From a virus, in the IMG/VR virus record IMGVR_UViG_3300025115_000029, positions 1 through 38,732 of that record: a DNA stretch of 38,732 bases; one strand, given 5' to 3'. Position numbers and translations under genes: made by a program. Numbering within the stretch: position 1 is the first letter of the stretch; each line of letters opens with the position of its first letter. A model generated the notes under the pieces. That model made no database searches, was not told the origin of the DNA, and saw only the letters and a list, made by a program, of their open reading frames with translations. Below are positions 4,645 through 38,732 of this stretch, piece after piece.

Positions 4645-5381
4645 TGCACGGTATAAAGGTTAGTAGACAGGGTTTTGATGTTAAAACAGCCAGTGATAAA
4701 CAACTAGCCTTTAGTTCTGAATGGCCACTACTTCCTATAGAGGCCGAGGGTACTTTTAACATGACCATAGGTAATAGTTATAATGAGGTATTGTATACCC
4801 ATAACTTAGGTTATCAACCAGTATTTATGGCATGGTATGAAATATCTGGACAGAAGTATGCAATTTCTAAACTCTTAGTTTATAACGTTTATTCAACCAC
4901 TACAACCTTACACATAAACGATTTTGCATTAGACACAGGAGTTCTACATTGGAAGGTATTTAGAAGACCATTACTTACTGCTTATGACGCAGGGAATATT
5001 GTTTCTACAGACGCAACGGAAAAAGACAGTGGGGATTTGGGTATAGTAGTAAGCCTCCCCGGTAAAGACATAAGTTCTACAGACAAAAGAGATTTTGGGG
5101 TGAGAAGCGATGTGAGGCAACTTATGATTCACAAAACCGGGTATTTTGATAACAGTACAAATGGTGCTAATATAGCCCACAACTTAGGCTATCAGCCGAT
5201 GTATTGGTTTTACACAGAAAATATTAACAGAAATCCCGCTGGTGCATACTCTTTTCAAATGCAAACAGATGATTTTGTTATATCGGCAAATAATACGACA
5301 CTAACCTATACTTTTTTTGGTTTTCCATTTTTAAGACACGCTTATTTAATCTTTAAGGACCCAGTGAACCTGGAAGGATAA
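4644..5381 (+). CDS. Tail protein with two HNLGYQP modules
   Basis: The 245-residue product contains two copies of a module. Each starts with a VS(R/L)xGxD strand followed by an S/T-rich turn and ends in an HNLGYQP motif (around residues 53-59 and 177-183), followed by an aromatic strand. A third copy is in the next gene. HNLGYxP motifs occur in phage tail and fibre-associated beta domains. Start and stop overlap the flanking genes by one base, implying coupled translation and fixed stoichiometry. Function beyond tail structure is inferred. Confidence 0.65.
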   Translation: MHGIKVSRQGFDVKTASDKQLAFSSEWPLLPIEAEGTFNMTIGNSYNEVLYTHNLGYQPVFMAWYEISGQKYAISKLLVYNVYSTTTTLHINDFALDTGVLHWKVFRRPLLTAYDAGNIVSTDATEKDSGDLGIVVSLPGKDISSTDKRDFGVRSDVRQLMIHKTGYFDNSTNGANIAHNLGYQPMYWFYTENINRNPAGAYSFQMQTDDFVISANNTTLTYTFFGFPFLRHAYLIFKDPVNLEG

Positions 5382-5812
5382 TGGCAAAGATAAGTGACGA
5401 AAATGATAGAGTGTTCAGAGTGAGCCTTCCAGGAGAGGATGGAAACAGTTCTGAACCTGAAAAGTACGCGGTACATAGTGGGTTTGACTATCCCAAGATA
5501 GAGGAATCATTAACGGGGATTGTAAATTATACAGTACCAAGTAGCCTTTCGATTCAGGATTATACAATAGCAACCGTAACACATAACCTTGGGTATTCCC
5601 CCTGTGCATTTTGCTTTGTACAAGACATAGACGGGGTTGGTCCAACACAGTTCGCAAGTCTTCCTTTTCCAGATTCGGTAATGGGGGAAAATTATTTCTT
5701 TGCTTATACAACCAGTACCCAGTTTGTAATTAAAATGAGGGTTGGTAATACCACATCTATTTGGACGGGGGCAGACTTTAGGTTTAAGTATCAGATTTGG
5801 GTCAATGATTGA
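5381..5812 (+). CDS. Tail protein with one HNLGYSP module
   Basis: This is a 143-residue homologue of one module of the preceding protein. It has VSLPGEDG near residue 14, HNLGYSP near residues 68-74, then an aromatic strand (CAFCFVQD). The start overlaps the previous stop (TAATG). It probably arose by duplication and assembles with the two-module protein. The next promoter overlaps its stop codon. Confidence 0.65.
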   Translation: MAKISDENDRVFRVSLPGEDGNSSEPEKYAVHSGFDYPKIEESLTGIVNYTVPSSLSIQDYTIATVTHNLGYSPCAFCFVQDIDGVGPTQFASLPFPDSVMGENYFFAYTTSTQFVIKMRVGNTTSIWTGADFRFKYQIWVND

Positions 5813-5814
5813 TG

Positions 5815-5865
5815 TGGTATAATTATATAAGACTATCGAGGGCAATTAGTTATTATTGTTAATAA
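5815..5865 (+). promoter_or_regulatory. Extended -10 promoter with TCGAGG leader
   Basis: TGGTATAAT (5815-5823), a 12-nt spacer, TCGAGG (5836-5841), and 24 nt to the ATG at 5866. The same order and spacing occur at 2940 and 36244. Confidence 0.65.
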
Positions 5866-6552
5866 ATGACATATACAGTTAAGCCTGGCGATACATTAAG
5901 TGGTATTCTCAAGAAGTTAGGAGTGTCAAGTTATGCAAGTCCTCAAACATGGGCTTTAATTAAAACCAGGTCCGGAAAGCCTGGTCTAATATACTCGGGG
6001 GAGGTTTTAGACCTATCAAGAGTACCAGGTTTGGCTTCAACGTCGGCTACCACCTCAACATCGGCCACAACACAAGCGGACAGAGCAGCAACAGAAGGAA
6101 AAGCAGCAACAGAAGGGACTCCCACATTAGACTTTAAGAAGGATGTTATGCCCTGGGAGAGTTTTTTTGATGAGAATCTTGCTTTAAGTTCAGCAGCACA
6201 AAGGGCAGGTGGTTATTATACGCCCTTGTTACAAAGGGGTAGAGAAGACGTAGAGAGTGATTTTGCCTCTAGGGGACTTACTAGGAGTGGAATAAGGGGT
6301 AGGAGTGTTATGGATTTATACAAAGATTTTGCAGAAAAAGAACAGACTATGAGAGATCAGTTGTATGGACAAAGGGAGAGTGAGGCTAAGGAAGACTACG
6401 GTTACCAACAGGGCCTTTACGAACAGGACCCAAGAGGATATAAGGCGACTCCTTACAGTACTAATAAGTACGATTATGATTATCCTGTAGAAGCCCCACA
6501 AAAATACGGGCAGGGCTATAGGGGTTGGTTGAGGAGTACATATAAGATTTAA
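5866..6552 (+). CDS. LysM-domain virion protein
   Basis: Residues 3-55 form a LysM domain (YTVKPGDTLSGILKKLG at the start), which binds peptidoglycan or chitin-type N-acetylglucosamine chains. A low-complexity Ala/Thr linker follows. The rest is helical and charged, with a Tyr/Gly-rich tail (YGYQQGLYEQDPRGYK). No catalytic domain is present, so it probably anchors the injection machinery to the wall and is not itself a lysin. It is first in a block of internal virion genes under the promoter at 5815. Confidence 0.7.
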   Translation: MTYTVKPGDTLSGILKKLGVSSYASPQTWALIKTRSGKPGLIYSGEVLDLSRVPGLASTSATTSTSATTQADRAATEGKAATEGTPTLDFKKDVMPWESFFDENLALSSAAQRAGGYYTPLLQRGREDVESDFASRGLTRSGIRGRSVMDLYKDFAEKEQTMRDQLYGQRESEAKEDYGYQQGLYEQDPRGYKATPYSTNKYDYDYPVEAPQKYGQGYRGWLRSTYKI

Positions 6553-6562
6553 TTAAAAGACC

Positions 6563-7348
6563 ATGACAAGCACCGAGCGATTAAAACAATATGAGGAGAT
6601 TTTTAACAGAAGCCAACAGTACGATCCCGCAGCATACCAACGGGGTTTCGAAAAAGCCTATGGAGAAGCAACTAACTACAATGCTGATTTAATAAATCAG
6701 AGAAGTGAGGCAATAGGACAGGCCCAGGCACTTCCAAATCAATTAAGAGAACAGTATGCTTCAAGTGCAATAAGAAATCCTTTAGCACAAGAGGCCTTGA
6801 TAGCAACAAGAAGGGGTAATTTAACTTCTGATATATCAAGACTTACAGACTTATTAGGAGCAAGACAATCAAGATACCAGGATGTTTTAGGTAAGTATTT
6901 AGCAGGGTATCAATCTGATATGCAAAGAGAGCAAACAGCAGCAGAAAATGCTTGGAGATTATATCAGGACGTATTAGCACAGGAGGAGGCAGAAAAGGCA
7001 AGGAGAGCAGCGGCTGCAAATGCTTTTGATTTGAGTAAACTCTTTGATACGGCAGGTGGTGCAAATGAAACCAATGGTGGGGGACCAAGGGTCTTTGAAA
7101 TCCCAGATAATACAAGACCTCAAAACATAACAAACACAATACAGGACTTAATGGCAAGTGGGGTTACAAACTACAGAAACACAGAAGGATTTCTACCTAA
7201 ATACTTAGAATTATTAAAAGGTTCTGCAGTAAGTTCTTTGGGTGGAATCCCTGGAATAACTGCATATACAACTTCCGTTGCACCGGATGTGTGGAGTGAT
7301 ATAAAGAGTGGTGCTACAAGTTTGTGGAATAAATTAGTAAGAAAATAA
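6563..7348 (+). CDS. Helical internal virion protein
   Basis: A 261-residue, Ala/Gln/Arg-rich, mostly helical protein with long amphipathic stretches (SDMQREQTAAENAWRLYQ, LAQEEAEKARRAAAANAF). It lies between the LysM protein and the two large ejection proteins, separated by only a few bases, which is where podoviruses keep internal core proteins. No specific family is recognised. The start has no clear Shine-Dalgarno sequence. Confidence 0.6.
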   Translation: MTSTERLKQYEEIFNRSQQYDPAAYQRGFEKAYGEATNYNADLINQRSEAIGQAQALPNQLREQYASSAIRNPLAQEALIATRRGNLTSDISRLTDLLGARQSRYQDVLGKYLAGYQSDMQREQTAAENAWRLYQDVLAQEEAEKARRAAAANAFDLSKLFDTAGGANETNGGGPRVFEIPDNTRPQNITNTIQDLMASGVTNYRNTEGFLPKYLELLKGSAVSSLGGIPGITAYTTSVAPDVWSDIKSGATSLWNKLVRK

Positions 7349-7349
7349 A

Positions 7350-9356
7350 ATGGCATATAAAAGGGTAACAGAAGAAGAATTTAGAAAATGGGCAGCACAA
7401 AATCCCGGTGCAGTTGCCAGAATAAACGGACAGGAGACCCAGGTTCCTATGCCCCAAGCACAAGACCTTGGGTTTTTTGGCAACCTTGCAAGAGGAGTGA
7501 CTAAACCTTTAAGGGCTGTTGCGGCAATGCCGGAGTATTTAGTACAAGCCCTAAGTGCTGCAAACAGAGGAGAAACAGGACTGAAGCCAGGAGAGTTTAA
7601 GAGTATTTTCTTAACGCCAGAGGAAGAAATTAAATGGGCAAGAGACCCAATTAAAGAGGGCTTGAAATCCTCGGTAGGTCTCGGTGCTTATTTAGTTCCC
7701 GGTGGAGGAGGTGGTGCAGGGACTGCAGTAGGGAGAATAGGAACTGCAGCAGGTAGGGGTGCTATATCAGGTTCTATGTCGGGACTAGCATACAGTGATG
7801 ACGATCAGGAGTTAAGAGGGGCCTTAACAGGAGGTGCTCTCGGTGGTGTTTTAGGAGGTGCTTTCCAAGGGATAGGAGAGGGTGCTAGGGCCATACAGGC
7901 TAAACAACAGGCGGCACAAGAAGCAGCCCGGGAGGGTTCTCAAAGAATTGTTGATACTATGGATGTGGACCAAATAGCAGCGTTGCCAGACAGAACTAAA
8001 GAAGGTCTTCTTAAACAGGCTCGTAGTGCGGGGTTTACAGACACGGGGGTTTCAGACAGTCAGAATATTAAAAATTATTTAGTCCATAGGAAACTTGCGG
8101 GGAAGACCCCAGCGGAGACCTTGGAGAATATGACACAAGAGTTTCACAGGGCTACAAAACTTAAAAAGGATGGCTTAAAGGAGATAGGGGGTTTATCAAA
8201 TGAATACATAGAACAGATTAAAAACCAGATAGACGATGCTGTCCAGTACTCGGGCCTTGGAGCGACAGACACAAACGCAGTTCAAAGAATGAAGGATGTC
8301 TTGGATATAATACCACGGGACGCAAAAACCTTGGACAAGGTGGCTCAGGATTGGTATAAAATGGGTCTTACAAGAGCAGGAGAGCAGAAAATGACCCAGT
8401 CAGGGTTGTATAAAGAGGGGGCGAGTGCAATAAGGGATGCTCTGAAAACAGCGAACCAGGGGGGAAGTTATACGGAGGGGATGAGTATATTAAGTCGGAT
8501 ACTGGGGTTACAAGATGAAGGTCTAGTTGCAAAGACCGCCTCAGAAGCAGCAAGGGCTGGTTTTGATATGCCATTATTTGCGGGGGCAGGTTTCCACGGA
8601 GCAGACATAAAGACACCATTTATTAGTGACATTATAAACAAGACAAGGGCAGCACAGGGTGCGGCCATGGAGTCTGGGGTTGGAGTAGGGAGTAACCTTT
8701 TATCAGGGGTTGCAGGAATAGCAGAGCCTGTAGCAGGGGTGGCACAAAGAGCTATTCCGGGAATGGTAGGTACAACACAAGCTGTGCCACAAAGACAGCA
8801 ACAACCACAATTAGAAGGTTTGGGTGGTATGTTACCACAACAGGCACCGCAACTTAACCAAATGGCTTTAATACAGGCAGTATTGAACGGGCAGATAAGT
8901 ACTACAGAGGCTAACTGGTTAATGGAGATGTTGGAACCCCAGGAAGAAGAATCAAACACACTAGAGATAGCTATCAACGAACTGGAAAGATTATATGGCG
9001 CAGGAACAGACCAGTCTCTGTCCAGGGGAACAAAGAGTACTGGAATAGGCGGACTTGTAAGCGGGGGAGTAGTAAGGGGAAAAACACTGTTTAACCAAGA
9101 TTTTGCAGATAGGAAAGCAGCTTATGACCAACAGAGAGCGATCGCAGTGGGTATAATCAATAAGGCCAGAGAGGCAGGGGTTCTTAATGAGGGGGAGTAC
9201 GAGGTTATGGTAAAGAATATGCCAAATGAGTTTACAACAGAGAAGGTTGCTCAGGATTGGTTTAAGAATGTAAGAAGAATGTTGGTTAATAAAGGGCAAT
9301 CAGCCACAGAGAGTAGTGAATCGGTTGTCCTAAAATTATTACAGGGAACATTGTAA
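7350..9356 (+). CDS. Large internal virion (ejection) protein with glycine-rich membrane-like region
   Basis: A 668-residue protein. Residues ~88-175 hold LTPEEE, then LKSSVGLGAYLVP, then a long Gly/Ala-rich hydrophobic stretch with GxxxG spacing, then YSDDDQELRGALTGG. The equivalent region of the protein at 9646 aligns at the same residue position, so the two share an N-terminal domain. Glycine-zipper segments of this kind occur in phage pilot proteins that insert into membranes. The middle is helical and Gln-rich; the C-terminus (after ~550) is basic and helical. No enzymatic domain is recognised. The role in DNA ejection is inferred from size, composition and order. Confidence 0.65.
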   Translation: MAYKRVTEEEFRKWAAQNPGAVARINGQETQVPMPQAQDLGFFGNLARGVTKPLRAVAAMPEYLVQALSAANRGETGLKPGEFKSIFLTPEEEIKWARDPIKEGLKSSVGLGAYLVPGGGGGAGTAVGRIGTAAGRGAISGSMSGLAYSDDDQELRGALTGGALGGVLGGAFQGIGEGARAIQAKQQAAQEAAREGSQRIVDTMDVDQIAALPDRTKEGLLKQARSAGFTDTGVSDSQNIKNYLVHRKLAGKTPAETLENMTQEFHRATKLKKDGLKEIGGLSNEYIEQIKNQIDDAVQYSGLGATDTNAVQRMKDVLDIIPRDAKTLDKVAQDWYKMGLTRAGEQKMTQSGLYKEGASAIRDALKTANQGGSYTEGMSILSRILGLQDEGLVAKTASEAARAGFDMPLFAGAGFHGADIKTPFISDIINKTRAAQGAAMESGVGVGSNLLSGVAGIAEPVAGVAQRAIPGMVGTTQAVPQRQQQPQLEGLGGMLPQQAPQLNQMALIQAVLNGQISTTEANWLMEMLEPQEEESNTLEIAINELERLYGAGTDQSLSRGTKSTGIGGLVSGGVVRGKTLFNQDFADRKAAYDQQRAIAVGIINKAREAGVLNEGEYEVMVKNMPNEFTTEKVAQDWFKNVRRMLVNKGQSATESSESVVLKLLQGTL

Positions 9357-9645: not shown

Positions 9646-11259
9646 ATGGGTAAATTTTCAGACGCATTACAATTTTGGACTAAACCACTTACAAGAGGGG
9701 GACGGGCTATTACCGGAAATCTTGATGAAAACGAACAGGATCAGTTAAGAAAAGAACAGGAAAATCTTTACCAAAGTATTTTAAGGACCACACAGCCTTA
9801 CAGAATGGGTGCTAATGTGTTTGTCCAAAACTATGCCCCAGCAATAAGGGCGTTAGCAGGTGGAGACCCTCTTGAGAGAGGAAGACTAGAGGAATGGACA
9901 GCGGGGGCGCTAACCCCAGAAGAACAAGATTACCTAGAAAGAAAACCTTATATGGCTGCGTTAAAAAGTAGTGCAGGTATGACGTCTTCTTTAATGCCTT
10001 TTACAAGTAGAGCAGTACCAGCAGCCACTTTGGGTGCTAGAACTGCTCAGATAGCGGGTAGGGGGCTTCTGGAGGGTGTTTTGGGTGGTTTTGGGTATAG
10101 TAGAGAGGGAAAGGAATTACAAGACACAGCGATTGGTGGTGGAATAGGTATGGGTGGTGAGTTGTTAGGAAATTATGTTTTTGACCCAAGTTATAGAGAC
10201 TTAGTAAACCAAGGAGTAGTGAATATGAACACAGGTAAGTATCAGGCAGCAGTTAATCCAGGTGTAAATATAGACACATTAAGGACAAGGGCATACGATG
10301 CGGCTGGATTAAATCCAGATGATTCTTCACTAATGGGGCAAGGTATGGGTATTTCTCATAAAAATAAATATATTACTGATATTGAGTATCTTCAGAGGGG
10401 AAATAAAAGCCCAGAGGTAGGTGAATATTTATTAGAACTAAGAGAACAAGGGTTGGTAGACCCTGGTCAAGTTGATATGTTACTTAAACTCGACTATGGA
10501 ATACAACCACAAGGAATTATGAGTGATAAGGTATTTGAGGAGGGTGGCCTAGACCCTATTGAGGGTAATTATGGTACAAAATTAAAAGAGAAAAATCTAG
10601 ACAGTTATATAAAAATTTTAACTGGAGAGGAGGGAGATAAAAGCCAGATATATAACATAAGTGTTGAAACAAGTAAAAAAGATCCTGGAAGGTTGGCAGA
10701 AAAGCCGAAAGGAGAGTGGATAGAAAGGGGTGGAGTTAAAACAAGAAACACAAGTGCAAATGATTTTAGGGACGAATTTAAACAGGTTACGGATAAAATA
10801 TTAGACGACAAAGGAAATCTAAAACCCGACCTAGATTCTAAACTATTACAAGAGGCTAAGAAATATAAAAACCCAGATGAGTTTTTGAAAGCGAAAAAAC
10901 CCCTGTATCACAGGACTGACGTAAAATTTGACAAATTTAATACCTCGTTAGACCCCGATGAGATGGGTACTTGGTTTGCAAAAGGGAAGGACATGTTGAC
11001 TGAAGATGCCAGGGACTTTCCTATTTTAATGGAAAGGATACCGAGCAAGAAGCTTAGGCTAATTACAGAAAAAGCGTTTAGCGGATTAGAGAACACAAAT
11101 GAATATCTCGATAGCCCTATGATGCCAGGGCCATATTTAGAGAACCTGGGATACGATGGTATTGATTATGGTCATAGTGTACTATTATTCAATCCTAACG
11201 AGGCGACACTAACCAAATCCCAACTCACCGACATCTGGAATAAAGCCTGGGGGGGATAA
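9646..11259 (+). CDS. Ejection protein carrying a C-terminal ADP-ribosyltransferase-like domain
   Basis: The N-terminal ~180 residues mirror the 7350 protein: LTPEEQ near 89, LKSSAGMTSSLMP, a Gly/Ala hydrophobic stretch and YSREGKELQD, suggesting a common ejection domain. The C-terminal ~119 residues differ: LYHRT (420-424), MGTWFAK (440-446), GYDGIDYG (502-509) and LLFNPNEATLTKSQL near 514. The order YH-x-T, G-x-(W/Y)F, GYDGI and FNPxE matches the ART-PolyVal type of ADP-ribosyltransferase seen in injected phage proteins. Activity is inferred; T4 Alt is the known precedent for an injected ADP-ribosyltransferase. The stop is followed at once by the promoter of the glycan cassette. Confidence 0.7.
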   Translation: MGKFSDALQFWTKPLTRGGRAITGNLDENEQDQLRKEQENLYQSILRTTQPYRMGANVFVQNYAPAIRALAGGDPLERGRLEEWTAGALTPEEQDYLERKPYMAALKSSAGMTSSLMPFTSRAVPAATLGARTAQIAGRGLLEGVLGGFGYSREGKELQDTAIGGGIGMGGELLGNYVFDPSYRDLVNQGVVNMNTGKYQAAVNPGVNIDTLRTRAYDAAGLNPDDSSLMGQGMGISHKNKYITDIEYLQRGNKSPEVGEYLLELREQGLVDPGQVDMLLKLDYGIQPQGIMSDKVFEEGGLDPIEGNYGTKLKEKNLDSYIKILTGEEGDKSQIYNISVETSKKDPGRLAEKPKGEWIERGGVKTRNTSANDFRDEFKQVTDKILDDKGNLKPDLDSKLLQEAKKYKNPDEFLKAKKPLYHRTDVKFDKFNTSLDPDEMGTWFAKGKDMLTEDARDFPILMERIPSKKLRLITEKAFSGLENTNEYLDSPMMPGPYLENLGYDGIDYGHSVLLFNPNEATLTKSQLTDIWNKAWGG

Positions 11260-11294
11260 TGGTATAATATAGTATTATTTAAAGTTCGAGGATT
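11260..11294 (+). promoter_or_regulatory. Extended -10 promoter of the glycan cassette
   Basis: TGGTATAAT (11260-11268) directly follows the stop at 11259. TCGAGG is at 11286-11291, only 3 nt before the ATG at 11295, which is shorter than a normal Shine-Dalgarno gap. This promoter would drive the run of glycan genes to 14907. Confidence 0.6.
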
Positions 11295-11945
11295 ATGAGG
11301 CCAATAGTTTACACAAGTGTTTATGGGAACTATGACAACCTTAAATCTCAACCTGATATCGGTGCTGATTATATTTGCTTTACTGACAATCCTAACCTCA
11401 AGAGTGAGACCTGGGATATAAGATACGAGCCAATATACGAACACCTACACCCAAGACTAAGAGCTAAGTTTCATAAACTCATATGTCCCTTTGACACACT
11501 CTCACTTTACATAGACGGTAGTATTGAAATAGTAAACCCTAATATCATTGACGAACTTTCTAACTTTTTACACAATGGTTGGGCTACTTATATACACCCT
11601 TCAGGGAGGGATTGTATTAAAAGCGAACTTGCAGAGTCACTACCTATGGAAAAATACCAAGACCAACCTATTAAAGAACAGGTGGACTATTACTTTTCAC
11701 AGGGTTTTCCAGAACACTATGGATTATGGGCTTGTGGAGTTATGTTAAGGGACGGTAAGTTTGACGATTTTGGAAGTAAATGGATGTTGGAAAATTTGGC
11801 ATGGACTTACCAGGATCAGATTTCTCTACCCTATCTTTTATGGAAGGAGAACTTTAAAATGGACAGTATAATTCTTGACCAATACGCTTGTTTTAATGGT
11901 GGGGATGTATTATTTAACATATTAGGACACAATCATAATGGCTAA
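11295..11945 (+). CDS. DUF616/TOD1-like glycosyltransferase
   Basis: The 216-residue protein begins with an IVYTSVYGNYD strand and turn, then YICFTDNPN and later LSLYIDGSIEI, where the acidic residue replaces the usual DXD. It ends with ILDQYACFNGG. This series fits DUF616 (TOD1/MUCI70-like) hexosyltransferases that act on cell-surface polysaccharides. It is the first gene after the promoter and overlaps the next start by 8 nt. Donor and acceptor are unknown; the cassette suggests a ribitol-phosphate-containing glycan. Confidence 0.65.
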   Translation: MRPIVYTSVYGNYDNLKSQPDIGADYICFTDNPNLKSETWDIRYEPIYEHLHPRLRAKFHKLICPFDTLSLYIDGSIEIVNPNIIDELSNFLHNGWATYIHPSGRDCIKSELAESLPMEKYQDQPIKEQVDYYFSQGFPEHYGLWACGVMLRDGKFDDFGSKWMLENLAWTYQDQISLPYLLWKENFKMDSIILDQYACFNGGDVLFNILGHNHNG

Positions 11946-12642
11946 GGTGGCAATATGTATGGCAACTTATAATGTGGGGGACTATTTAAAAGAAATGCTT
12001 TGGAGTATAGAAAACCAGACCTTTGAGGATTACAAGGTATATGTATTCAATGATGGAAGTGAAGATAACACTATGGAAGTTTTAAGGGAGTATAAAAACA
12101 GAATACCAATGGAAGTTAAGAACAGCGAGGGTATACACAATATAGGTACAGTTAAGAATATGGTTGTTAATATGGCGCTAAAGGATAATCCTGAATATAT
12201 ACAAATGGTAGACTCAGATGATTTACTAGAACCTAACATGATTGAGAGAATGGTAGAGGAGATAGAAAAGGGTTATGATTTTGTTATATGTGACGGGAGA
12301 ACCTTTGGCGAAACCGGAGACAAAGGTATTAAAAATGATTTAAATTTGGAGATAGACCCTGAAACAATAGGGTTATTTATAGAAAGAGAAAATCCTCTCT
12401 TCAGTTGGTCTATGTTTAAATCGGAAGTATTAAGAGAACAAAACTTTAGGGTTGGAATGAAACACTTTGAAGACTGGGATTTATACCTAAGGTTGTTTAA
12501 AACAGGAAAGAGGTTGTCTATAATCAGGGAGGAATTATACAATTACAGGACTCACGCAGGACAATTTCATAAGGTAACTGATAAGAATTTTGATAAGCAC
12601 AAAAAGTATATGTGGGAGGTAAATAATATAACTACTGATTAA
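11938..12642 (+). CDS. Family 2 glycosyltransferase
   Basis: Clear GT-A family 2 enzyme of 234 residues: VAICMATYNVGDYL at the N-terminus, VFNDGSEDNT at 36-45, the metal-binding DSD at 92-94 (MVDSDDLLEP), and a C-terminal acceptor region with FEDWDLYLRLF. No membrane segment is seen, so it is cytoplasmic. It overlaps the preceding gene by 8 nt and ends one base before the LicD-like gene, so the three are probably made together. The sugar transferred cannot be told. Confidence 0.88.
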   Translation: MAKVAICMATYNVGDYLKEMLWSIENQTFEDYKVYVFNDGSEDNTMEVLREYKNRIPMEVKNSEGIHNIGTVKNMVVNMALKDNPEYIQMVDSDDLLEPNMIERMVEEIEKGYDFVICDGRTFGETGDKGIKNDLNLEIDPETIGLFIERENPLFSWSMFKSEVLREQNFRVGMKHFEDWDLYLRLFKTGKRLSIIREELYNYRTHAGQFHKVTDKNFDKHKKYMWEVNNITTD

Positions 12643-12643
12643 A

Positions 12644-13189
12644 ATGCCTCTTAAAAGACAGGCAACTAAAAATTTATTAGACATAAAGACTATTCTAGAT
12701 GAATTAAAGATTGTTTTCTGGCTCGACGCAGGAACTTTATTAGGAGCATATAGGGACAAGGATTTTTGTGATGGGGACGAGGATGATATAGATTTGTGTA
12801 CTTGGGAAAATTACCTACCCCTACTAGACGAGATAATAATAAGGGCTGAGGATTTAGGGTTTAATCTTCTGCACCGTTGGGAACTTGAAATATGTATAGA
12901 GAGGGGAGGGTCTCGTATAGACCTGTTCTTTAACAGGAAGAATGGGATGGAAGCGTATACCCATATTTACGCAGAGGACATTATACACAAGTACGTTGTT
13001 ATACCGGTTAGGTATTATGAGGTTTTAGAACCAATAACATTTAAGGGTGGAAGTTTCCTTACCCCAAGTCCTGTTGAAGATTTCTTGACGTTAAAGTATG
13101 GGGATTGGCAGACACCTATTCACAGAAGCGTTTACAGGTGTGACAATGCAGAACAAAATAAGTTAATAAGGGACGATTATGCTTTATAA
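12644..13189 (+). CDS. licD-like: LicD/FKRP-like phospho-polyol transferase
   Basis: The 181-residue protein has the LicD family signature: FWLDAGTLLGAYRD (25-38) followed by DGDEDDIDL (43-51), the acidic metal and nucleotide site of this nucleotidyltransferase-fold family. LicD proteins transfer phosphocholine from CDP-choline; animal fukutin/FKRP, of the same family, transfer ribitol phosphate from CDP-ribitol. The next gene encodes a probable CDP-ribitol synthase and overlaps it by 11 nt, so ribitol phosphate is the likeliest cargo. It is shorter than many LicD proteins (~260 residues) but keeps the catalytic part. Acceptor unknown. Confidence 0.8.
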   Translation: MPLKRQATKNLLDIKTILDELKIVFWLDAGTLLGAYRDKDFCDGDEDDIDLCTWENYLPLLDEIIIRAEDLGFNLLHRWELEICIERGGSRIDLFFNRKNGMEAYTHIYAEDIIHKYVVIPVRYYEVLEPITFKGGSFLTPSPVEDFLTLKYGDWQTPIHRSVYRCDNAEQNKLIRDDYAL

Positions 13190-14390
13190 GCCAACCTTTA
13201 GTGCTGTTATTTTGGCCGGTGGTAAAGGGGAGAGGTTTGGTTCTTCAATACCTAAACCCTTTATGAGTCTTAATGGGAAGCCCGTTATTCAATATTCCTT
13301 AGATGTATTTGAGGGTTTAGTTGATGAGATAATTATAGTCAGTAACAGGCAGTATAAAGACTACAGGTGCGTTGAGGCGGGGAAAACTAGAAGTGAGAGT
13401 GCGTTTAATGGTGTTTCTGCGTGTAGTAATCCGAACTTTGTTATTATTCATGACGGAGCAAGACCATTTATAAGGAAGGGGTTGGTTGAGTTAATAAAAA
13501 CCCAGTTATTAGCAGGGTATGATTGTGTTGATACAGTGTCCTCAATAGTGGACGGGTATGTAGAAAATGGTATTTCTTTGAGTAAAACAGGTAAATATTT
13601 AGGATTAACCCCAGAAGGGTTCTACTACAAGATGTTAATGTTGGCGTTCAAGGGAACAGACAGGAGAGATTGGCAAGATGAAGTGGAAATGTACCAAGAG
13701 GTGGTTGGGTTGCAGGACTGCTGCATAGTAGGGGGGGAAGTCTTTAATTCTAAAATAACTTACAAACAAGACTTAGCCTATGCAGAAGGTATTATGAAGT
13801 TTTGGAACAGACCAATAGACACCAAACCGGACCTTGGTATTCCAACCCTACTGTTTGGTGGGAGTGGTGGTATAGGAAAGGCTTGTGTTAAAAAACTAAA
13901 GGATGTTGATTGTCCTACTAGGAGGGAGGTCGACTTAAGAGAGAAACTTGACGTTGACCTAGGTAAATATAGGGCTATAATACACAGTGCAGGGGAATAT
14001 TTTGATGAGGGTCAGATTATGAGAGTGAACTTTGAAAGTTGTGTGGAATTGATTAACTTAGCAGAGGATCAGGAATGGAAGGGGAATATTGTGTTTTTAT
14101 CCTCAACAGCCGCAACCTATGGTAGAAAAGGAATACCTATATATAGTGCTTCCAAGTCTGCACTAAACGCCTATATTGAAGCAAGGCATGAGGAATTAGC
14201 CCAAAAGGGTATATATATAAATGCTATAGCACCTGCCAAGGTAGATACTAGACTTCAAGAGACTATAAACCCAGATACCCCAAAGAGTGAGATGATGACA
14301 CCAGAGTTTGTGGCGGATTATGTACTAAGATATACAGACACAAAGACACATGGTCATATAATTTTTTTAAGGAAGGGTTTTGATGAATGA
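13179..14390 (+). CDS. bcs1-like: Bifunctional CDP-ribitol synthase (cytidylyltransferase-reductase fusion)
   Basis: A two-domain protein. Residues 8-205 are an IspD/TarI-like cytidylyltransferase: ILAGGKGERFGSSIPKPF (11-28) for CTP binding and HDGARPF (91-97). Residues ~220-400 are a short-chain dehydrogenase: GGSGGIG (227-233), HSAGE, and the Ser309, Tyr322, Lys326 triad (LSST, YSASK). This order is that of Haemophilus Bcs1, which reduces ribulose 5-phosphate and activates the product as CDP-ribitol; Gram-positive bacteria use separate TarI and TarJ, and TarJ is a different dehydrogenase type. At 403 residues it is somewhat compact. The last codons overlap the methyltransferase start. Motifs are intact, so activity is plausible. 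Confidence 0.85.
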   Translation: MLYKPTFSAVILAGGKGERFGSSIPKPFMSLNGKPVIQYSLDVFEGLVDEIIIVSNRQYKDYRCVEAGKTRSESAFNGVSACSNPNFVIIHDGARPFIRKGLVELIKTQLLAGYDCVDTVSSIVDGYVENGISLSKTGKYLGLTPEGFYYKMLMLAFKGTDRRDWQDEVEMYQEVVGLQDCCIVGGEVFNSKITYKQDLAYAEGIMKFWNRPIDTKPDLGIPTLLFGGSGGIGKACVKKLKDVDCPTRREVDLREKLDVDLGKYRAIIHSAGEYFDEGQIMRVNFESCVELINLAEDQEWKGNIVFLSSTAATYGRKGIPIYSASKSALNAYIEARHEELAQKGIYINAIAPAKVDTRLQETINPDTPKSEMMTPEFVADYVLRYTDTKTHGHIIFLRKGFDE

Positions 14391-14907
14391 GAGGCAGTTA
14401 GAATTTGAATACTTACTAAAGTGGAAACCAAATCCCTGTACCCTGGCCCTTGATTTAGGTTGCGGAGAATCCAAGGTATCTCCTGAATTTGTCGGTGTAG
14501 ACAGGGTTAGAGGGGAAACAGCCAGACCTGATGGGTCGATATTTACAGCCAACCCTGATTTATTATGTGATGTAAACAGTTTACCCTATGAAAATGGCAC
14601 GGTTGACTTTATAGTGTCAAGTCATACCTTAGAACACATGACTAATCCTGTTGGGTCTTTAAGTTACTGGATTGATAAGTTAAGGGTAGGAGGAAGACTA
14701 GCAATTATAGTCCCGGATTGGAGATACACTTGGAGTTGTGAAAACGACGAGAGTAGGTATAGTCCAGACGGACACAAACACGATTTTACCCCAAAAGAAC
14801 TTGAAAGAGTTTTTTGTACAGTACGACAATGTGAGAAAATTAAGATATTAGATGTGTCTACCCCGACACATAACTGGTCAATAGGAGGGGCTATTGAGGT
14901 GGTATAA
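14383..14907 (+). CDS. SAM-dependent methyltransferase (class I)
   Basis: Rossmann-type methyltransferase of 174 residues: ALDLGCGESKVS is motif I, FVGVDR the acidic loop, PDLLCDVNSLPYENGTVDFI motif II/III, HTLEHMTNPVGSL motif IV, then KLRVGGRLAIIVPD. It resembles small-molecule or glycan methyltransferases and not DNA methylases. The ATG at 14383 follows AAGGAAGG by a suitable gap and overlaps the synthase stop; an upstream TTG is less likely. As the last gene in the cassette it may methylate the added sugar, a common chain-capping step; that is inference. Confidence 0.8.
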   Translation: MNERQLEFEYLLKWKPNPCTLALDLGCGESKVSPEFVGVDRVRGETARPDGSIFTANPDLLCDVNSLPYENGTVDFIVSSHTLEHMTNPVGSLSYWIDKLRVGGRLAIIVPDWRYTWSCENDESRYSPDGHKHDFTPKELERVFCTVRQCEKIKILDVSTPTHNWSIGGAIEVV

Positions 14908-14937
14908 TGTATAGAGGTTAAATTAAAATCAAGTTAA
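14900..14937 (+). promoter_or_regulatory. Extended -10 promoter of the lysis module
   Basis: TGGTATAAT (14900-14908) overlaps the methyltransferase stop and stands 29 nt before the endolysin ATG. The leader has AGAGG in place of TCGAGG. Confidence 0.6.
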
Positions 14938-15978
14938 ATGGCAAAGTTTAGAAGCCCGTTTAATACGAACACGTTATCTCTCACACAGACTTACCATCCC
15001 GGTTCTAATAATACAGCTATTGACTTGTCGGCTACCGCAGACACCCCGGTGTATGCAATAGCGGATGGGCCAGTTACATACAGAAGTTCACTGGCGGGGA
15101 GTTATTGTATTCAACAAATAGACAATTCTGACTTAAAGGTTTACTACGTACACACTTATAAGTGGGTGGGGGCTAATACCTATGTTAAAAAGGGGCAAAT
15201 TATTTGCTATATAGCACCAACATCCTTAAACGGTGGTTATCCTACACATTTACACCTTGGACTACCGACCGGTAAAGGAATAATGGATTATTTCGATAGA
15301 AGCCTAGTCTTTACAACATCATTTAATGATATAAAAGCAATATGGTTTAAAAATAATTCGCTAAATTGGGCGTTATTTAAGGATTTAAGTTATGAATCTA
15401 CTACAATGAAAATAGGGGATAAGGTTGAGTTGACAGCCGATACTAATTTAAGGGTTGGGAGCGGTACTAGTTACAATATAAAAACGGTAGTACCCAAGGG
15501 TTCGGTTGGTGAAATTATAGGAGGACCAAGAAACGCAGACAGTTATGAATGGTGGGATATACGATTTTTAAATGATCAGGGATGGATGGCAAACCCATTA
15601 GGAACTAGACTTGTTAAAACCACCAAGGAAATTACCCAAACAGATGGAAATTTACCAACACCCCCTGTAGAGCCCCCACAGCCCTCACCGTGCGAGGAGT
15701 ATCAAAAACTAATAACTACCCTAAATCAAAGAATAAGTGCCTTAGAATTAATCTCAGGGCTTCAGGAGGCAGAATTAGAGGAGACTAGGGACTCGTTACA
15801 GAAATTACAACTTATGTTTGATGGACTGCAAGGAAGTTATAATATTTTAGAACAAGAGAAGCTGGATTTACAGGAGGATTTAAGTAGGTGTAAGTTAGAA
15901 TTACAGGAAGGTAAAACAAATTTTATTAAGAAGATATTAGACGCTATTAAAAAGTGGTTGGATAGTACCATGGGGTAA
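14938..15978 (+). CDS. Endolysin-like protein: M23-type domain, SH3 domain, coiled coil
   Basis: The 346-residue protein starts with an M23/LytM-like metallopeptidase domain (about 5-130): AIDLSA with Asp29, VHTY with His72 and HLH at 104-106. The first zinc ligand, normally His four residues before the Asp, is Asn25, so the site may be weakened or inactive. A bacterial SH3 wall-binding domain follows (about 155-230: TNLRVGSGTSYN, EWWDIRF, GWMANPLG), then a Pro-rich linker and a long coiled coil (LQEAELEETRDSLQKLQ). No signal peptide. It precedes two membrane proteins, as expected for a lysis cassette. The coiled coil could also mean a virion-associated lysin. Confidence 0.7.
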   Translation: MAKFRSPFNTNTLSLTQTYHPGSNNTAIDLSATADTPVYAIADGPVTYRSSLAGSYCIQQIDNSDLKVYYVHTYKWVGANTYVKKGQIICYIAPTSLNGGYPTHLHLGLPTGKGIMDYFDRSLVFTTSFNDIKAIWFKNNSLNWALFKDLSYESTTMKIGDKVELTADTNLRVGSGTSYNIKTVVPKGSVGEIIGGPRNADSYEWWDIRFLNDQGWMANPLGTRLVKTTKEITQTDGNLPTPPVEPPQPSPCEEYQKLITTLNQRISALELISGLQEAELEETRDSLQKLQLMFDGLQGSYNILEQEKLDLQEDLSRCKLELQEGKTNFIKKILDAIKKWLDSTMG

Positions 15979-25456: not shown

Positions 25457-26458
25457 ATGACAAGATTTTTAATTACAGGAGCAGCGGGATTTGTAGGGTC
25501 TCACTTGGTTGAGCATACTATGAAAAACACTGATTGGGATATTATAGCTTTAACTAAGATGGACAGGGCAGGAGACTTAAATAGGCTACAAGAGATTATA
25601 GAAGACCACCCGGAATGGAAGGGGAGAATTAAGATAGTAAGGCACGATTTGAATGACTCTTTGGTTGCTGTACATAAACACATAGGAGAGGTTGACTATA
25701 TAGCACACCTAGCGGCTTGTTCACATGTAGACACGTCTATAAAGGAACCTGTAGAAGTGTTTTGTAACAATGCGAGAAGTACAGTTCAAATATTTGAGTA
25801 TGCTAGGACACTACAACCCAATCTTAAGAAGCTGTTGTATTTTTCAACAGACGAGGTTTATGGACCAGCACCAGAGGGCTACGACTTTACAGAGGAAGAT
25901 AAACTATACCCCAGTAACCCATACAGTGCGGGAAAGGCGGCAGGGGAAATGATAGCCATGGCTTATGGTGTCACATATGGAACACCGTACCTAATAACAA
26001 ACACAATGAATATATTTGGAGAAAGACAGGATCCCGAGAAACTTATACCGAGGTGTATGCAATTTATACAGGACGGTAAACCAATGACTATACACGGTAC
26101 ACCGGGGAACATTGGTAAAAGACACTGGTTACACGCAAGGAACGCAGCAGACGCGGTTGTGTTTCTTTTACAGAATCCTATCGTAAAGGATAAAGTTCAT
26201 ATTGTAGGAGACGTAGAAATGGACAATTTACAGATGTTTAAGTTAGTTGCTAAATATATGGGTAAAGAGATTATAGAGGAGGGGAAAGATTTTGTATTTG
26301 TAGATTTCCATTCTACTAGACCTGGGCACGATTCTCGATATGCTATGTCCGGTAAAAAACTAGCAGACTTAGGGTGGGTAGCACCAGTACAATTTAAGTC
26401 TAGTTTAGAAAAGACAGTTAAATGGACCTTAGAAAGACCTAACTGGGTATCAAAATAA
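25457..26458 (+). CDS. rmlB-like: NAD-dependent sugar-nucleotide 4,6-dehydratase (RmlB-like)
   Basis: The 333-residue extended SDR has GAAGFVG (8-14) for NAD binding, STDEVYG (130-136) with the Thr-Asp-Glu characteristic of 4,6-dehydratases, and YSAGK (156-160) as the Tyr-x-x-x-Lys pair. NTMNIFGERQDPEKLIPR resembles the RmlB segment that binds the dTDP-sugar. It would form a 4-keto-6-deoxy sugar nucleotide, the entry to rhamnose and related sugars. Other rhamnose genes are absent, so it must feed host enzymes or a phage transferase. It stands 10 kb from the glycan cassette, beside packaging genes. Confidence 0.85.
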   Translation: MTRFLITGAAGFVGSHLVEHTMKNTDWDIIALTKMDRAGDLNRLQEIIEDHPEWKGRIKIVRHDLNDSLVAVHKHIGEVDYIAHLAACSHVDTSIKEPVEVFCNNARSTVQIFEYARTLQPNLKKLLYFSTDEVYGPAPEGYDFTEEDKLYPSNPYSAGKAAGEMIAMAYGVTYGTPYLITNTMNIFGERQDPEKLIPRCMQFIQDGKPMTIHGTPGNIGKRHWLHARNAADAVVFLLQNPIVKDKVHIVGDVEMDNLQMFKLVAKYMGKEIIEEGKDFVFVDFHSTRPGHDSRYAMSGKKLADLGWVAPVQFKSSLEKTVKWTLERPNWVSK

Positions 26459-28728: not shown

Positions 28729-29268
28729 ATGGAAAAACATATCTGCCCAATTTGTAAAAAAGAATTTGAAAAGCGTGTTTATAAAAAATGCCACGCCGTT
28801 TATTGTTCGCAAGAATGTGCTTATAGGGGTAGGGGTTTAGGATATTCAAAAAGAATAATCAAAATACCTTATAATTGTAAAAGAAAAGAGCCAAAGAATT
28901 GCGAAGTCTGTCAGAAAGAGTTTATTTATAGGACAAAAAAACAAAAGTATTGTTCACGCAAATGCTTTGAAATAGCACACAAACAAAATATGTCTGGTAA
29001 AAATAACCCAGCATATAGAAATGGTAATAGTTATAATAAAAGGAGTTTCAGAGGCGATGATTGGGAAACGCTACGAAAAGAAATTTACAAAAGAGATAAT
29101 TTTATATGTCAAGACTGCGGAATAAAATGTGAGAGCAAATCAAGCTATAAAAAGTCTCACAATATAATTCAGTGCCACCACGTAGAGGATTATAAAGAAA
29201 ATAAAAATAACAATAAGACTAACTTAATAACATTATGCTTGAAATGCCATCTAATCAGACACGCATAA
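28729..29268 (+). CDS. HNH homing endonuclease inserted in methyltransferase gene (copy 1)
   Basis: The 179-residue protein has an N-terminal treble-clef-like zinc part ([32 protein letters not shown]), then an HNH domain: [38 protein letters not shown]. It separates the short 5' methyltransferase fragment from the rest of that gene and has its own promoter. Its last 34 nt overlap the new methyltransferase start. The local sequence uses CGN arginine codons more than the neighbouring AGA/AGG-rich virion genes. Confidence 0.85.
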
Positions 29269-30845
29269 TACAAGGCGATGCTTTGATTGAATTGAAGAAA
29301 TTTCAGGATGATTCTGTTGACGCTGTTATAACTGACCCACCAGCAGGAATTTCTTTTATGGGGAAGTCTTGGGATGATGATAAAGGCGGTAGAGACTACT
29401 GGATAGCCTGGATGCAAGAAATTATGACGGAATGCAATAGGGTTTTAAAACCAGGTGGACACGCACTTGTCTGGGCTTTACCACGAACATCACATTGGAC
29501 AGCAAGAGCAATAGAAGATTCTGGTTTTGAAATAAGGGATGTTTTGAATCACATTTTTGCATCAGGATTTCCGAAATCGCTCAATGTGCATAAGCAATTA
29601 TTAAAGCAAAATCACCCAGACGCAGACAAATACAAAGGAATGGGGACTGCTCTAAAACCTTCTTATGAGCACTGGATTCTAGCAAGGAATCCATTGTCTG
29701 AGTCGACCATAGTTAAGAATTTTCTTAAACACGGAACGGGTGCGATTGATATTGATGGGTGTAGGATACCGACAAGAGAAGAAAAGGTGATGGTTCATAA
29801 TGCTGGTAGTTCTGGGAGTAAAACATATAACTGGAATAGTGATGAGCAAAAAGAAAGTTCAAAAGAATATAGAGAGGTTCAAGGTCGTTTTCCAGCTAAT
29901 CTAGTAGTTACAGATGATGCTTTGAATGATGGGGTGATGACTAAGAGTGTGGCAGGTGGAAAATCAACAGGTAGAAACTTTGGTGGTGCATCTGAAAAAG
30001 ATATGGACAGAACTGGACATAACGACTCTGGCTCAAAATCCCGATATTTCGATATAGATGTATGGGGAGAGAAGCACGGGCTACTCCAATTCCCAAAGGC
30101 GTCAAAAGCTGAACGAAACAAAGGGCTTGACAAGTTAGTGATAATTGATATAATGGAAGTATTAAATAATAATACTACATTATGCGACACAAGTTTAACA
30201 GGTTCGGTAAAGTTAGCACAGCTCCTGGTGGGTATGGAAGCATCTCAAATCACGGTCACCGCAGAGTCTGGTGCACGAAACAAAAGCGTTATAGAATGGA
30301 GCACCACTTGGTTTGGGAACAATTTAATGGAGAAATACCAAGAGGTATGCAAATCCACCATATTGACAGAAACCCAATCAATAACAGTATCAGCAATTTA
30401 CAACTGGTTGACACACTTACTCACAAAAGAATACACAGCGGATGTGAATTTAGAGATGGGGAGTGGTGGAAACCCTGCTGTAAATGCGGAGAAATTAAAA
30501 GAATTGACAATTACTATAAGCGAAAAGATGGCATTAGCCCTTGGTGTAAAGAATGCTGTAAACGGAACGCAACTGAAAATAAGCGTAAAAGAAGGGCACT
30601 GCTTTCATCCGACTTGTAAACCAGTCCACCTTATGTCTTGGCTTGTAAGATTAGTAAGTAAAGAGGGTGATGTAGTCCTTGACCCATTTATGGGAAGTGG
30701 TACAACAGGAGTAGCTTGTAAATTACAGGGTAGAGATTTTATAGGAATAGAATTGAATGAGGAGTACATTGAAATAGCAAGGGCTAGGATAGAGGGTTGG
30801 GAGGTACCTGGAGTAGAGGGTAAGGATCAGCTAAAGTTGGTGTGA
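29235..30845 (+). CDS. DNA methyltransferase (N4/N6 type) containing a nested HNH insertion
   Basis: An N4-cytosine/N6-adenine DNA methyltransferase of the beta-like order. Motif IV TDPPAG is at 33-38, a recognition region follows, and near the C-terminus come HPTCKP (458-463), [13 protein letters not shown] (SAM-binding motif I) and [14 protein letters not shown]. Between residues ~300 and ~455 the conserved protein is broken by a low-complexity stretch that is the out-of-frame reading of another HNH gene; the frame stays open to the stop. The starting codons lie inside the upstream HNH gene; ATG 29244 is an alternative start. Activity is doubtful unless the insert is tolerated. Confidence 0.8.
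30127..30154 (+). promoter_or_regulatory. Perfect sigma70 promoter before the nested HNH gene
   Basis: TTGACA (30127-30132), 16-nt spacer, TATAAT (30149-30154) with extended TG. TTGACA coincides with methyltransferase codons for Leu-Asp, so the -35 may be donated by the recipient gene. Confidence 0.8.
30182..30619 (+). CDS. HNH homing endonuclease nested in the methyltransferase (copy 2)
   Basis: The 145-residue product has [33 protein letters not shown] and THKRIHSG, the HNH_3 pattern of phage homing endonucleases, followed by a zinc finger ([18 protein letters not shown]). It lies in a different frame from the methyltransferase that surrounds it, and its stop falls in the HPTCKP codons. 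It inserts between two conserved methyltransferase blocks, as homing enzymes often do. Confidence 0.85.
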
Positions 30846-35051: not shown

Positions 35052-36251
35052 ATGGAAAAGAGACTACTTAGAGTGTTATGGCTACCTGCTGATGATGGCG
35101 GTTGTGGTCATCATAGGATTAGGATGTTTGATGAAGCATTTAACAGGCTTAAACTGGCAGACAGTACACTACTTGACCCTAGAGAAGATGAAAAAGACGT
35201 TAGGGCGGCCATAGAGTATGCAGACGTAGTGGTTGGAAGACTTAATACTACCGAGTATATACGATTAATTAAACAAAACTGGCCTAATAAAGTGGTAGTT
35301 TTTGACCACGATGACAATACCCTAGAGCTTAAACCCACTAATCCTTCATACAAAGACTTTGGTACAGAGGATGTATGGGTTCCTATGGCTAATGTAAAAG
35401 AGACAGACTTCTACAAGAAAGCGTCAGTGGCGGTTAAACTTAAAATAGAGGAGAAACAGGCTATTCCATTGTGGGTTACAGGCATAACAGACGGGTTTAA
35501 CAGGTATGTTAATGTACAACAGCATATGAACCTATTGTTTGATTTGGCAGTGTGTACACTTGCAACCTCCCCAGTACAAAAATTAACAGAGTTGTGGGGT
35601 ATGTATGCTTCTAAGGTAGCAGTGATACCTAACTGTATTGATTTTAGGTACTATCCTGATGTTGAAGTTAAAAAGAAAAGAGAAAAAGGAGAGATTAGAA
35701 TAGGTTGGAACGGTGGAAGTAGCCATAGTGCGGACCTAAAAACTATAATTCCCTCAATTAAAAGACTTAAAGAGAAGCACAAGGGACTTAAATTAGTTAT
35801 ATGTGGTAGTTACTTCCCTGAATTGTTTGATAGTATGAAGGACATAGTAGAGTATCATCCTTGGACTAAATGGGAGGCAGCACCCTTTAGAATGAAGTTA
35901 CTTGATTTGGACATGGGGATAATACCCCTGGCTGATGATGAACACTTTAACGAATACAAGAGTGAACTTAAAATGATAGAGTTTGGGGCATTAAGAATCC
36001 CAATGATAGTCAAGGATCAGTTACCATACTCTCCATATATTAAGAAGGGAGAGAACTGTTTGGCTTACAAGACCCCAGAGGAGTTTGAAAAGTGTGTAGA
36101 ATTAATGATAGAAAAGAAAAATAAGCAGTCGATAATAGACAGTGCTTACGAATGGGTACTAAACCACAGGAATATTGACAAGATAGCCCCAGATGTAGTT
36201 AAAGTATACAAGGATTTACTTCCAGAGAAAACACAAAATCTCGTGGTATAA
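35052..36251 (+). CDS. GT-B fold glycosyltransferase (family 4-like)
   Basis: A 399-residue two-domain enzyme. The N-terminal half contains WLPADDGGCGHHRIRMFDEA, a family 4-like opening. The C-terminal half has IRIGWNGGSSHSADLKTI, LVICGSYFP, PFRMKLLDLDMGIIPLAD and the EX7E-type ending YKSELKMIEFGALRIPMI. GT4 enzymes use nucleotide sugars. Being placed inside the head-to-tail gene block, a capsid or tail protein is a plausible acceptor; a host glycan is the alternative. Gap to TCGAGG is 6 nt here. Confidence 0.85.
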   Translation: MEKRLLRVLWLPADDGGCGHHRIRMFDEAFNRLKLADSTLLDPREDEKDVRAAIEYADVVVGRLNTTEYIRLIKQNWPNKVVVFDHDDNTLELKPTNPSYKDFGTEDVWVPMANVKETDFYKKASVAVKLKIEEKQAIPLWVTGITDGFNRYVNVQQHMNLLFDLAVCTLATSPVQKLTELWGMYASKVAVIPNCIDFRYYPDVEVKKKREKGEIRIGWNGGSSHSADLKTIIPSIKRLKEKHKGLKLVICGSYFPELFDSMKDIVEYHPWTKWEAAPFRMKLLDLDMGIIPLADDEHFNEYKSELKMIEFGALRIPMIVKDQLPYSPYIKKGENCLAYKTPEEFEKCVELMIEKKNKQSIIDSAYEWVLNHRNIDKIAPDVVKVYKDLLPEKTQNLVV

Positions 36252-38046: not shown

Positions 38047-38732
38047 ATGAGTAGAGAAGAAAAAACAATAACAGAATTAGAATTAAATCCTACAGTTAGT
38101 GTAGACAGAGACAACGACCTGATAATGATGGTGGATGTTGATGATACTTCTATGAGTGAGTATGGAACTTCTAAGAAAGTTAAAGTAGAAGCATTTATAG
38201 GTGATAAGGGAGATATTGGAAGTACTGGACCAACCGGACCGACCGGTGTAACTGGACCCCAAGGTTTACAAGGTGATAAGGGAAGTACAGGAGCCACAGG
38301 TCCTACAGGAAGTCAAGGTATACAGGGAAACACAGGACCAACTGGAAATACTGGGCCAACTGGTGCAGACTCTACGGTGGCAGGGCCAACAGGTCCCACT
38401 GGTAGCCAAGGAAATACGGGTTCAACTGGACCAACGGGTCCAACTGGTGCAGATTCTACAGTTGAGGGTCCTACGGGCCCCACAGGGCCTCAGGGAGCAC
38501 AAGGAGAGGTAGGTGTAACAGGACCAACTGGAAATCAGGGAACCCAGGGTGCCACGGGTAGTACTGGACCAACGGGGCCAATTGGACCTACTGGAAGTCA
38601 AGGAGAACAAGGTATAACAGGGCCCACTGGTGCTAAAGGAGACCAGGGAGATACTGGAGCCACCGGTTCTCAGGGTATTCAAGGACCTACCGGTGCTAAA
38701 GGAGATACTGGTTCTACAGGTCCCACAGGGGC
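38047..38732 (+). CDS. Collagen-like tail fibre, N-terminal part (continues at base 3)
   Basis: Start ATG at 38047 follows an A-rich spacer after the preceding fibre gene. Residues 1-50 form a non-collagen head ([26 protein letters not shown]) that aligns with the N-terminus of the neighbouring fibre at 37283 (TLLELTTA, MVDVSDTTE, GTTKKATVR); this is probably the domain docking fibres on the tail. Collagen-like Gly-X-Y repeats begin near residue 52 and run through the end of the window into base 1. The window end is an assembly break and not a real truncation: the last 127 bases recur at the start in the matching frame. Confidence 0.9.
38606..38732. repeat. Terminal direct repeat, right copy (assembly overlap)
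   Basis: This is the exact second copy of bases 1-127. Removing one copy gives a 38,605 bp circle. The biological ends of the packaged DNA are not visible here. Confidence 0.9.

Follow-up and report, generated by a model that had tools for sequence, protein, structure and literature searches.

Why should a small phage carry a run of genes that, by their domains, could make an activated polyol and attach it to a glycan? We examined this question for the virus record IMGVR_UViG_3300025115_000029, the whole of which (38,732 nucleotides, hereafter the window) was analysed, and for a five-gene cassette at positions 11260-14907 on its + strand. Our preferred reading, to which we give a probability of roughly 0.55, is that the five genes form a glycan-decoration module, expressed late, in which a cytidine diphosphate (CDP)-polyol is made and then transferred, most likely to an acceptor on the virion. 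CDP-polyol synthesis and polyol-phosphate transfer are well supported as predictions from sequence and modelled structure.

The five reading frames lie where a preliminary description had put them, and for four of their products the Pfam domains are far beyond chance. They encode a DUF616/TOD1-MUCI70-like glycosyltransferase (11295-11945, 216 aa), a GT2 glycosyltransferase (11938-12642, 234 aa), a LicD/FKRP-type phosphotransferase (12644-13189, 181 aa), a fusion of a cytidylyltransferase (residues 1-207) with a short-chain dehydrogenase/reductase (SDR; residues 216-403) (13179-14390) and an S-adenosylmethionine-dependent methyltransferase (14383-14907, 174 aa), at whose start a TTG at 14380 is followed at once by ATG. 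The genes had been called overlapping, which is true of three of the four junctions (8-11 bp); the GT2 and LicD genes are instead 1 bp apart. An extended -10 promoter does precede the cassette, as an exact match to TGGTATAAT at 11260-11268. The window holds five exact copies of this pattern against 0.83 expected, all on the + strand and all upstream of genes. Since the next copy stands at 14900-14908, ahead of an M23-SH3 endolysin gene (14938-15978), the five cassette genes can form one unit.

The donor would come from the fusion protein, which combines matches to IspD (PF01128, E 3e-27) and adh_short (PF00106, E 1e-19) in one chain. Its residues 1-207 match IspD/TarI cytidylyltransferases and the SDR domain begins at about residue 216, an architecture of the Acs1/Bcs1 type; reductase and CDP-ribitol activities have been reported on one chain in many species by Gerin et al. 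(PMC4873967). In profile searches PF01128, PF00106 and the LicD family PF04991 all scored far beyond chance. Alignment showed the cytidine triphosphate (CTP)-binding residues R19, K26, D92, R95 and K192 and the SDR tetrad Asn284-Ser309-Tyr322-Lys326 to be intact, the roles of these residues being those generally assigned to them in IspD and SDR enzymes. Homologues over the full length were found at about 56 loci in bacteria, and in phages with identities of up to 65%; a profile of the bacterial fusion family has TarI ribitol-5-phosphate cytidylyltransferases as its closest solved structures. For 13179-14390 structure prediction gave an AlphaFold2 model of moderate quality (mean predicted local distance difference test score (pLDDT) 81.2, predicted template modelling score 0.60).

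Which polyol is made is a separate matter. The SDR half would reduce a ketose 5-phosphate, most likely D-ribulose 5-phosphate, and the cytidylyltransferase half would activate the reduced product with CTP to a CDP-polyol, most likely CDP-ribitol. The preliminary description had named ribitol outright; the CDP-polyol part of that claim stands, and ribitol is retained as a best guess only, because the predicted polyol pocket is altered. Several features of the phage protein weigh against an ordinary CDP-ribitol enzyme: taken alone, the solved structure that it matches best is an IspD, its SDR half is short, and its pocket departs from all 19 aligned bacterial fusions at positions that are near-invariant there (T126G, R136K, Q143L, Q146E and TDD to QDE). 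The fusion might thus make another CDP-polyol, such as CDP-arabinitol or a CDP-hexitol, with LicD transferring that polyol phosphate. We hold this to be possible but rather doubtful: the changed pocket residues, which are common to the homologue in phage contig L131 (65% identical), speak for it; the overall architecture and the partner genes, which are those of the CDP-ribitol type, speak against it. The recurrence of the changes in L131 leads us to read them as altered or relaxed specificity, not as decay. A TPQ to TPE change marks all six members of the viral fusion clade.

The LicD protein scored 26.1 bits against PF04991 (cut-off 22.6, E 1e-5). Its AlphaFold2 model (mean pLDDT 85.5) matches FKRP far above all else: the best solved structure is the FKRP catalytic domain (Z 17.8, 157 of 181 residues, 2.4 Å), the FKRP matches include the CDP-ribitol complex 6kam, and the next matches are nucleotidyltransferases at Z 12.7 and below. 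The model presents a nucleotidyltransferase fold with catalytic aspartates. In FKRP, D360, D362, D364 and D416 are essential (PMC6965139); the phage residues D45, D48, D50 and D93, invariant in 17 LicD proteins, are their likely counterparts. This enzyme would move polyol and phosphate as one unit onto a glycan. Across the LicD family several CDP donors are in use, for example CDP-choline in mf1 (PMC11982090), which counts against a polyol donor. The best NCBIfam match of the phage LicD is the mf1 cholinephosphotransferase, at a score well short of the cut-off. On that evidence LicD could instead transfer phosphocholine or phosphoethanolamine from the host pool, leaving the fusion to serve otherwise, for instance in making isoprenoid precursors, as has been proposed for phage ispD. 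We consider this very improbable. The methylerythritol phosphate (MEP) step has no use for a fused SDR domain, the fusion missed the cut-off of the IspD equivalog TIGR00453 in NCBIfam (110 against 181.3 bits), and other MEP, choline or phosphonate genes were not seen among the proteins scanned. The conserved pairing of the fusion with users of CDP-polyols argues in the same direction.

In bacteria, a genome scan yielded about 56 cytidylyltransferase-SDR fusions, 21 of which have a LicD gene within 3 kb, mostly in contact, as against 5 of the 37 unfused IspD-like genes of that set, 4 of those 5 sharing a locus with a fusion. Among the remaining fusion loci, 19 neighbours belong to PF04464 (TagF-like) and 5 are CDP-alcohol phosphatidyltransferases (CDP-OH_P_transf); the fusion therefore travels with enzymes that use CDP-alcohols. 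At the closest bacterial match, L051, a TagF-like gene, the fusion and LicD stand in a row, and the clusters examined in detail (Parabacteroides, Proteus) are O-antigen-like. In the window, too, LicD adjoins the fusion. Both central proposals of the preliminary description, CDP-polyol synthesis by a reductase-cytidylyltransferase fusion and LicD/FKRP-type transfer, gain support from this partnership, which is strong both in bacteria and in other phages.

Viral relatives of the fusion and of LicD were found only by alignment-based scans of viral contigs; scans with either single protein returned nothing, which reflects a limit of sensitivity, since the alignment-based scans found relatives. Of six close phage relatives of the fusion (the best 65% identical), four adjoin LicD (L131, L132, L133 and L134) and a fifth adjoins PF04464 (L136); in L135 the neighbouring gene has no family assignment. 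Six of the viral fusions form a clade of their own (support 98/94). An origin of the phage fusion from Neomarinimicrobiota, beside which it forms a long branch, was rejected; once viral relatives are included, it falls within a viral clade. With the cytidylyltransferase half alone an unfused protein scores slightly higher (114 against 107 bits), yet for the SDR half the closest protein is the L051 fusion, which makes common ancestry likelier than an independent fusion of the two halves. The LicD protein of L131 carries a methyltransferase domain (64.9 bits), and those of L133 and L134 carry a GT2 domain. In L133 a single protein (11266-13134) carries two LicD domains and, behind them, a GT2 domain, and in L134 PIG-L deacetylase and WbqC-like genes (7296-9136) belong to a glycan cluster that lies behind the fusion and LicD-GT2. 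Two further genes taken by eye for TagF-like, in G006 (5263-6099) and in L135 (3882-4862), gave no PF04464 match. LicD itself was absent from 36 other viral loci with a DUF616 gene, had no match among annotated phages, where the fusion matched through its cytidylyltransferase half only, and was not found nearby in four gut phage records checked. The fusion was not found in the sibling records G001-G006, several of which are fragments.

The cassette is also modular. L131, a closely similar type of phage by its terminase (71%) and capsid (56%), carries its fusion and LicD elsewhere in the genome, with a DUF616 gene and a methyltransferase-GT2 protein at the position of the window cassette; the sibling phage G006 has DUF616 and GT2 in place without the polyol module. 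Because LicD, the fusion and the methyltransferase are absent at this place in G006, they are dispensable, and one might take the cassette genes for recent, non-functional acquisitions from a host. That seems very improbable indeed to us, given intact frames, retained catalytic residues, a separate phage clade and a ratio of nonsynonymous to synonymous substitution (dN/dS) for the fusion, relative to L131, of about 0.13 (synonymous divergence being near saturation).

The other cassette enzymes would act around this transfer. The DUF616 assignment is the weaker one: PF04765 (TOD1_MUCI70) reached only 16.4 bits, below the cut-off of 21.4, but the product matches PHROG 26101 (glycosyltransferase, E 4e-16). 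Two sibling phages have copies 83% and 71% identical in the corresponding position, with dN/dS of about 0.09. The GT2 protein (PF00535, E 7e-23) is 62% identical in a sibling phage. These two enzymes may begin the glycan or go on extending it, and the methyltransferase (PF08241, Methyltransf_11, E 7e-8) probably modifies or caps the product; elsewhere a methyltransferase is fused to LicD (L131) or found close to LicD or to the fusion (L145 and L135).

What, then, would be decorated? The acceptor is most likely a virion protein, for example the threonine-rich collagen-like fibre or the capsid; such proteins would be made in the cytoplasm in the same late phase. The cassette lies among late genes, between virion-type genes and the endolysin, and its products appear soluble: hydrophobicity (Kyte-Doolittle, 19 residues) nowhere exceeds 1.6 in the five proteins or in the other sugar-gene products tested, and neither a flippase, a membrane-bound glycosyltransferase nor a polymerase was found in the cassette, which accordingly lacks the membrane flippase or membrane-anchored glycosyltransferase of GtrABC-type receptor conversion. 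This position and solubility favour a virion acceptor, as do L145 and L146, in which relatives of LicD (53% and 33%) lie in glycosyltransferase cassettes about 3-5 kb downstream of an SU10-type capsid gene. The collagen-like tail fibre gene, a candidate acceptor, starts at 38047-38732 and runs on at 1-1883 across the ends of the record (+ strand); joined, it is a single frame of 813 aa, in which 163 Gly-X-Y triplets stand in long runs; 100 triplets have Thr at Y, and 45 are Gly-Pro-Thr (GPT). In Clostridioides difficile, SgtA glycosylates Thr in the GPT repeats of the collagen-like BclA3 (PMC7157674). Directly after the fibre gene follows a possible partner, a GT2 glycosyltransferase with tetratricopeptide repeats (GT2-TPR; 2086-2955, +; PF00535 E 2e-20, PHROG 13126), and another, GT1-like gene (35052-36251, +; weak PF13524 and PF00534 matches), with counterparts 75% and 68% identical in sibling phages, lies between the major capsid and adaptor genes. 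The placing of these two genes likewise favours the virion. All of these points are circumstantial.

The argument from late position is weakened by L131, in which a DNA methyltransferase gene is the neighbour of the fusion and LicD, and by the Flandersviridae, in which an ispD-licD pair sits in the replication module (PMC8008677). A serious rival, which we regard as possible though not probable, is that the same chemistry acts on a host surface glycan or lipid-linked precursor, the changed receptor excluding competitors or keeping progeny from sticking to debris. Bacterial homologues of the fusion and LicD are located in O-antigen or capsule clusters, a proposal for Enterococcus has LicD proteins attach ribitol phosphate to precursors that are lipid-linked (PMC7188991), and superinfection exclusion has been proposed for the licD of Flandersviridae (PMC8008677). 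Against such a role stand the lack of the membrane components named above and a place beside lysis genes, which suggests late expression and little time for surface remodelling; moreover, PHROG or Pfam scans of the window proteins, which cover small open reading frames only in part, showed no integrase. The preliminary description had offered both targets, host receptor and virion; both are possible, and the genomic position leans to the virion. Its teichoic-acid conversion, moreover, presumes a Gram-positive host. Searches with the portal protein gave no match in 296 Bacteroidota genomes (the phylum of L104) or in 149 Neomarinimicrobiota genomes (the phylum of L051), and remote matches only (20-23%) in 4 of 299 genomes from the phylum of L109 (Firmicutes by title).

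The window spans a whole virus record whose ends carry a 127-bp direct repeat, as circular assembly gives, and the genome is therefore probably complete, at 38,605 bp. The repeat lies inside the collagen-like fibre gene, and since its length is a common assembler k-mer it is better taken as a sign of circular assembly than as a terminal repeat from packaging. The SU10 major capsid protein (PF17236, E 4e-77) and adaptor (PF24175, E 3e-16) identify an SU10-like podovirus, and a terminase and the portal protein are also encoded. A further sugar gene, for a GDP-mannose dehydratase-like SDR (25457-26458), is 80% identical in G002 and was not found in G006. At 17461, 28729 and 30858 (and at 2086), boxes resembling a -10 element, TGATATAAT-like, lie only 6-8 nt ahead of a start codon, and most window genes lack a Shine-Dalgarno sequence; several of the mRNAs may be leaderless. 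Just upstream of the cassette, 9646-11259 encodes a large protein that matches nothing in Pfam or PHROGs; its C-terminus NLGYDGIDYGHSVLLFNP bears a tentative resemblance to the ADP-ribosyltransferase-like ends of phage polyvalent proteins. The gene at 29235-30845 encodes a 536-aa DNA methyltransferase whose PHROG 67 match is split by a long insert, with an HNH endonuclease gene adjacent at 28729.

We tentatively propose, with more doubt than confidence, that tailed phages of several lineages use a self-contained CDP-polyol synthase and an FKRP-like transferase to coat their own fibres or capsids with methyl-capped polyol-phosphate glycans. To our knowledge, a teichoic-acid-like coat has not been described on a virion. 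If the proposal is true, phages make and attach a modification of the teichoic-acid or dystroglycan type with a donor independent of the host, and phage ispD-licD pairs, so far taken for isoprenoid and phosphorylcholine genes, would be reinterpreted. It would also give biochemistry minimal LicD enzymes (181 aa) with a matched donor synthase, and provide a small phage in which virion glycosylation can be put to the test. An adjacent ispD-licD pair was reported in Flandersviridae phages in 2021 (PMC8008677), and what is new here is a better-supported pathway reading of an already reported type of gene pair; in the open literature, which leaves subscription papers outside the search, we found neither a phage CDP-ribitol synthase-reductase fusion nor its pathway reading.

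The Flandersviridae pair resembles ours in that cytidylyltransferase and LicD genes are adjacent in a phage and accessory within their group. It was described as ispD, the SDR fusion being unmentioned, lies in the replication module and was read as serving isoprenoid and phosphorylcholine functions (PMC8008677), whereas in the window the fused reductase points to a CDP-polyol and glycosyltransferases and a methyltransferase are present. With the Acs1/Bcs1-type fusions the phage protein shares an N-terminal IspD/TarI-type domain and a C-terminal SDR in one chain, and its homology to bacterial members annotated 'bifunctional cytidylyltransferase/SDR family oxidoreductase' is full-length; it differs in being phage-encoded and shorter (about 400 against about 456 residues), with a shortened SDR and an altered polyol pocket. 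The likeness to Haemophilus Bcs1 is drawn at family level, the compared sequences being bacterial fusions of this annotation. The phage LicD shares the nucleotidyltransferase fold and the aspartates of FKRP/FKTN and bacterial LicD (PF04991), and resembles FKRP closely in structure, but is a bare catalytic domain without the FKRP stem domain. In the decoration of the enterococcal polysaccharide antigen, which involves a TarI homologue, LicD is likewise proposed to transfer ribitol phosphate, the CDP-ribitol coming from a neighbouring enzyme (PMC7188991), although there the genes are chromosomal, the enzymes separate and the products lipid-linked teichoic-acid chains. The SgtA-BclA3 system of C. 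difficile, like the GT2-TPR gene and fibre of the window, pairs a glycosyltransferase gene with an adjoining collagen-like protein rich in GPT (PMC7157674), but it concerns a spore surface and N-acetylglucosamine, with no polyol phosphate known. The set-up described here recurs in several unrelated phages, and its related systems are found in bacterial capsules and on a human muscle protein.

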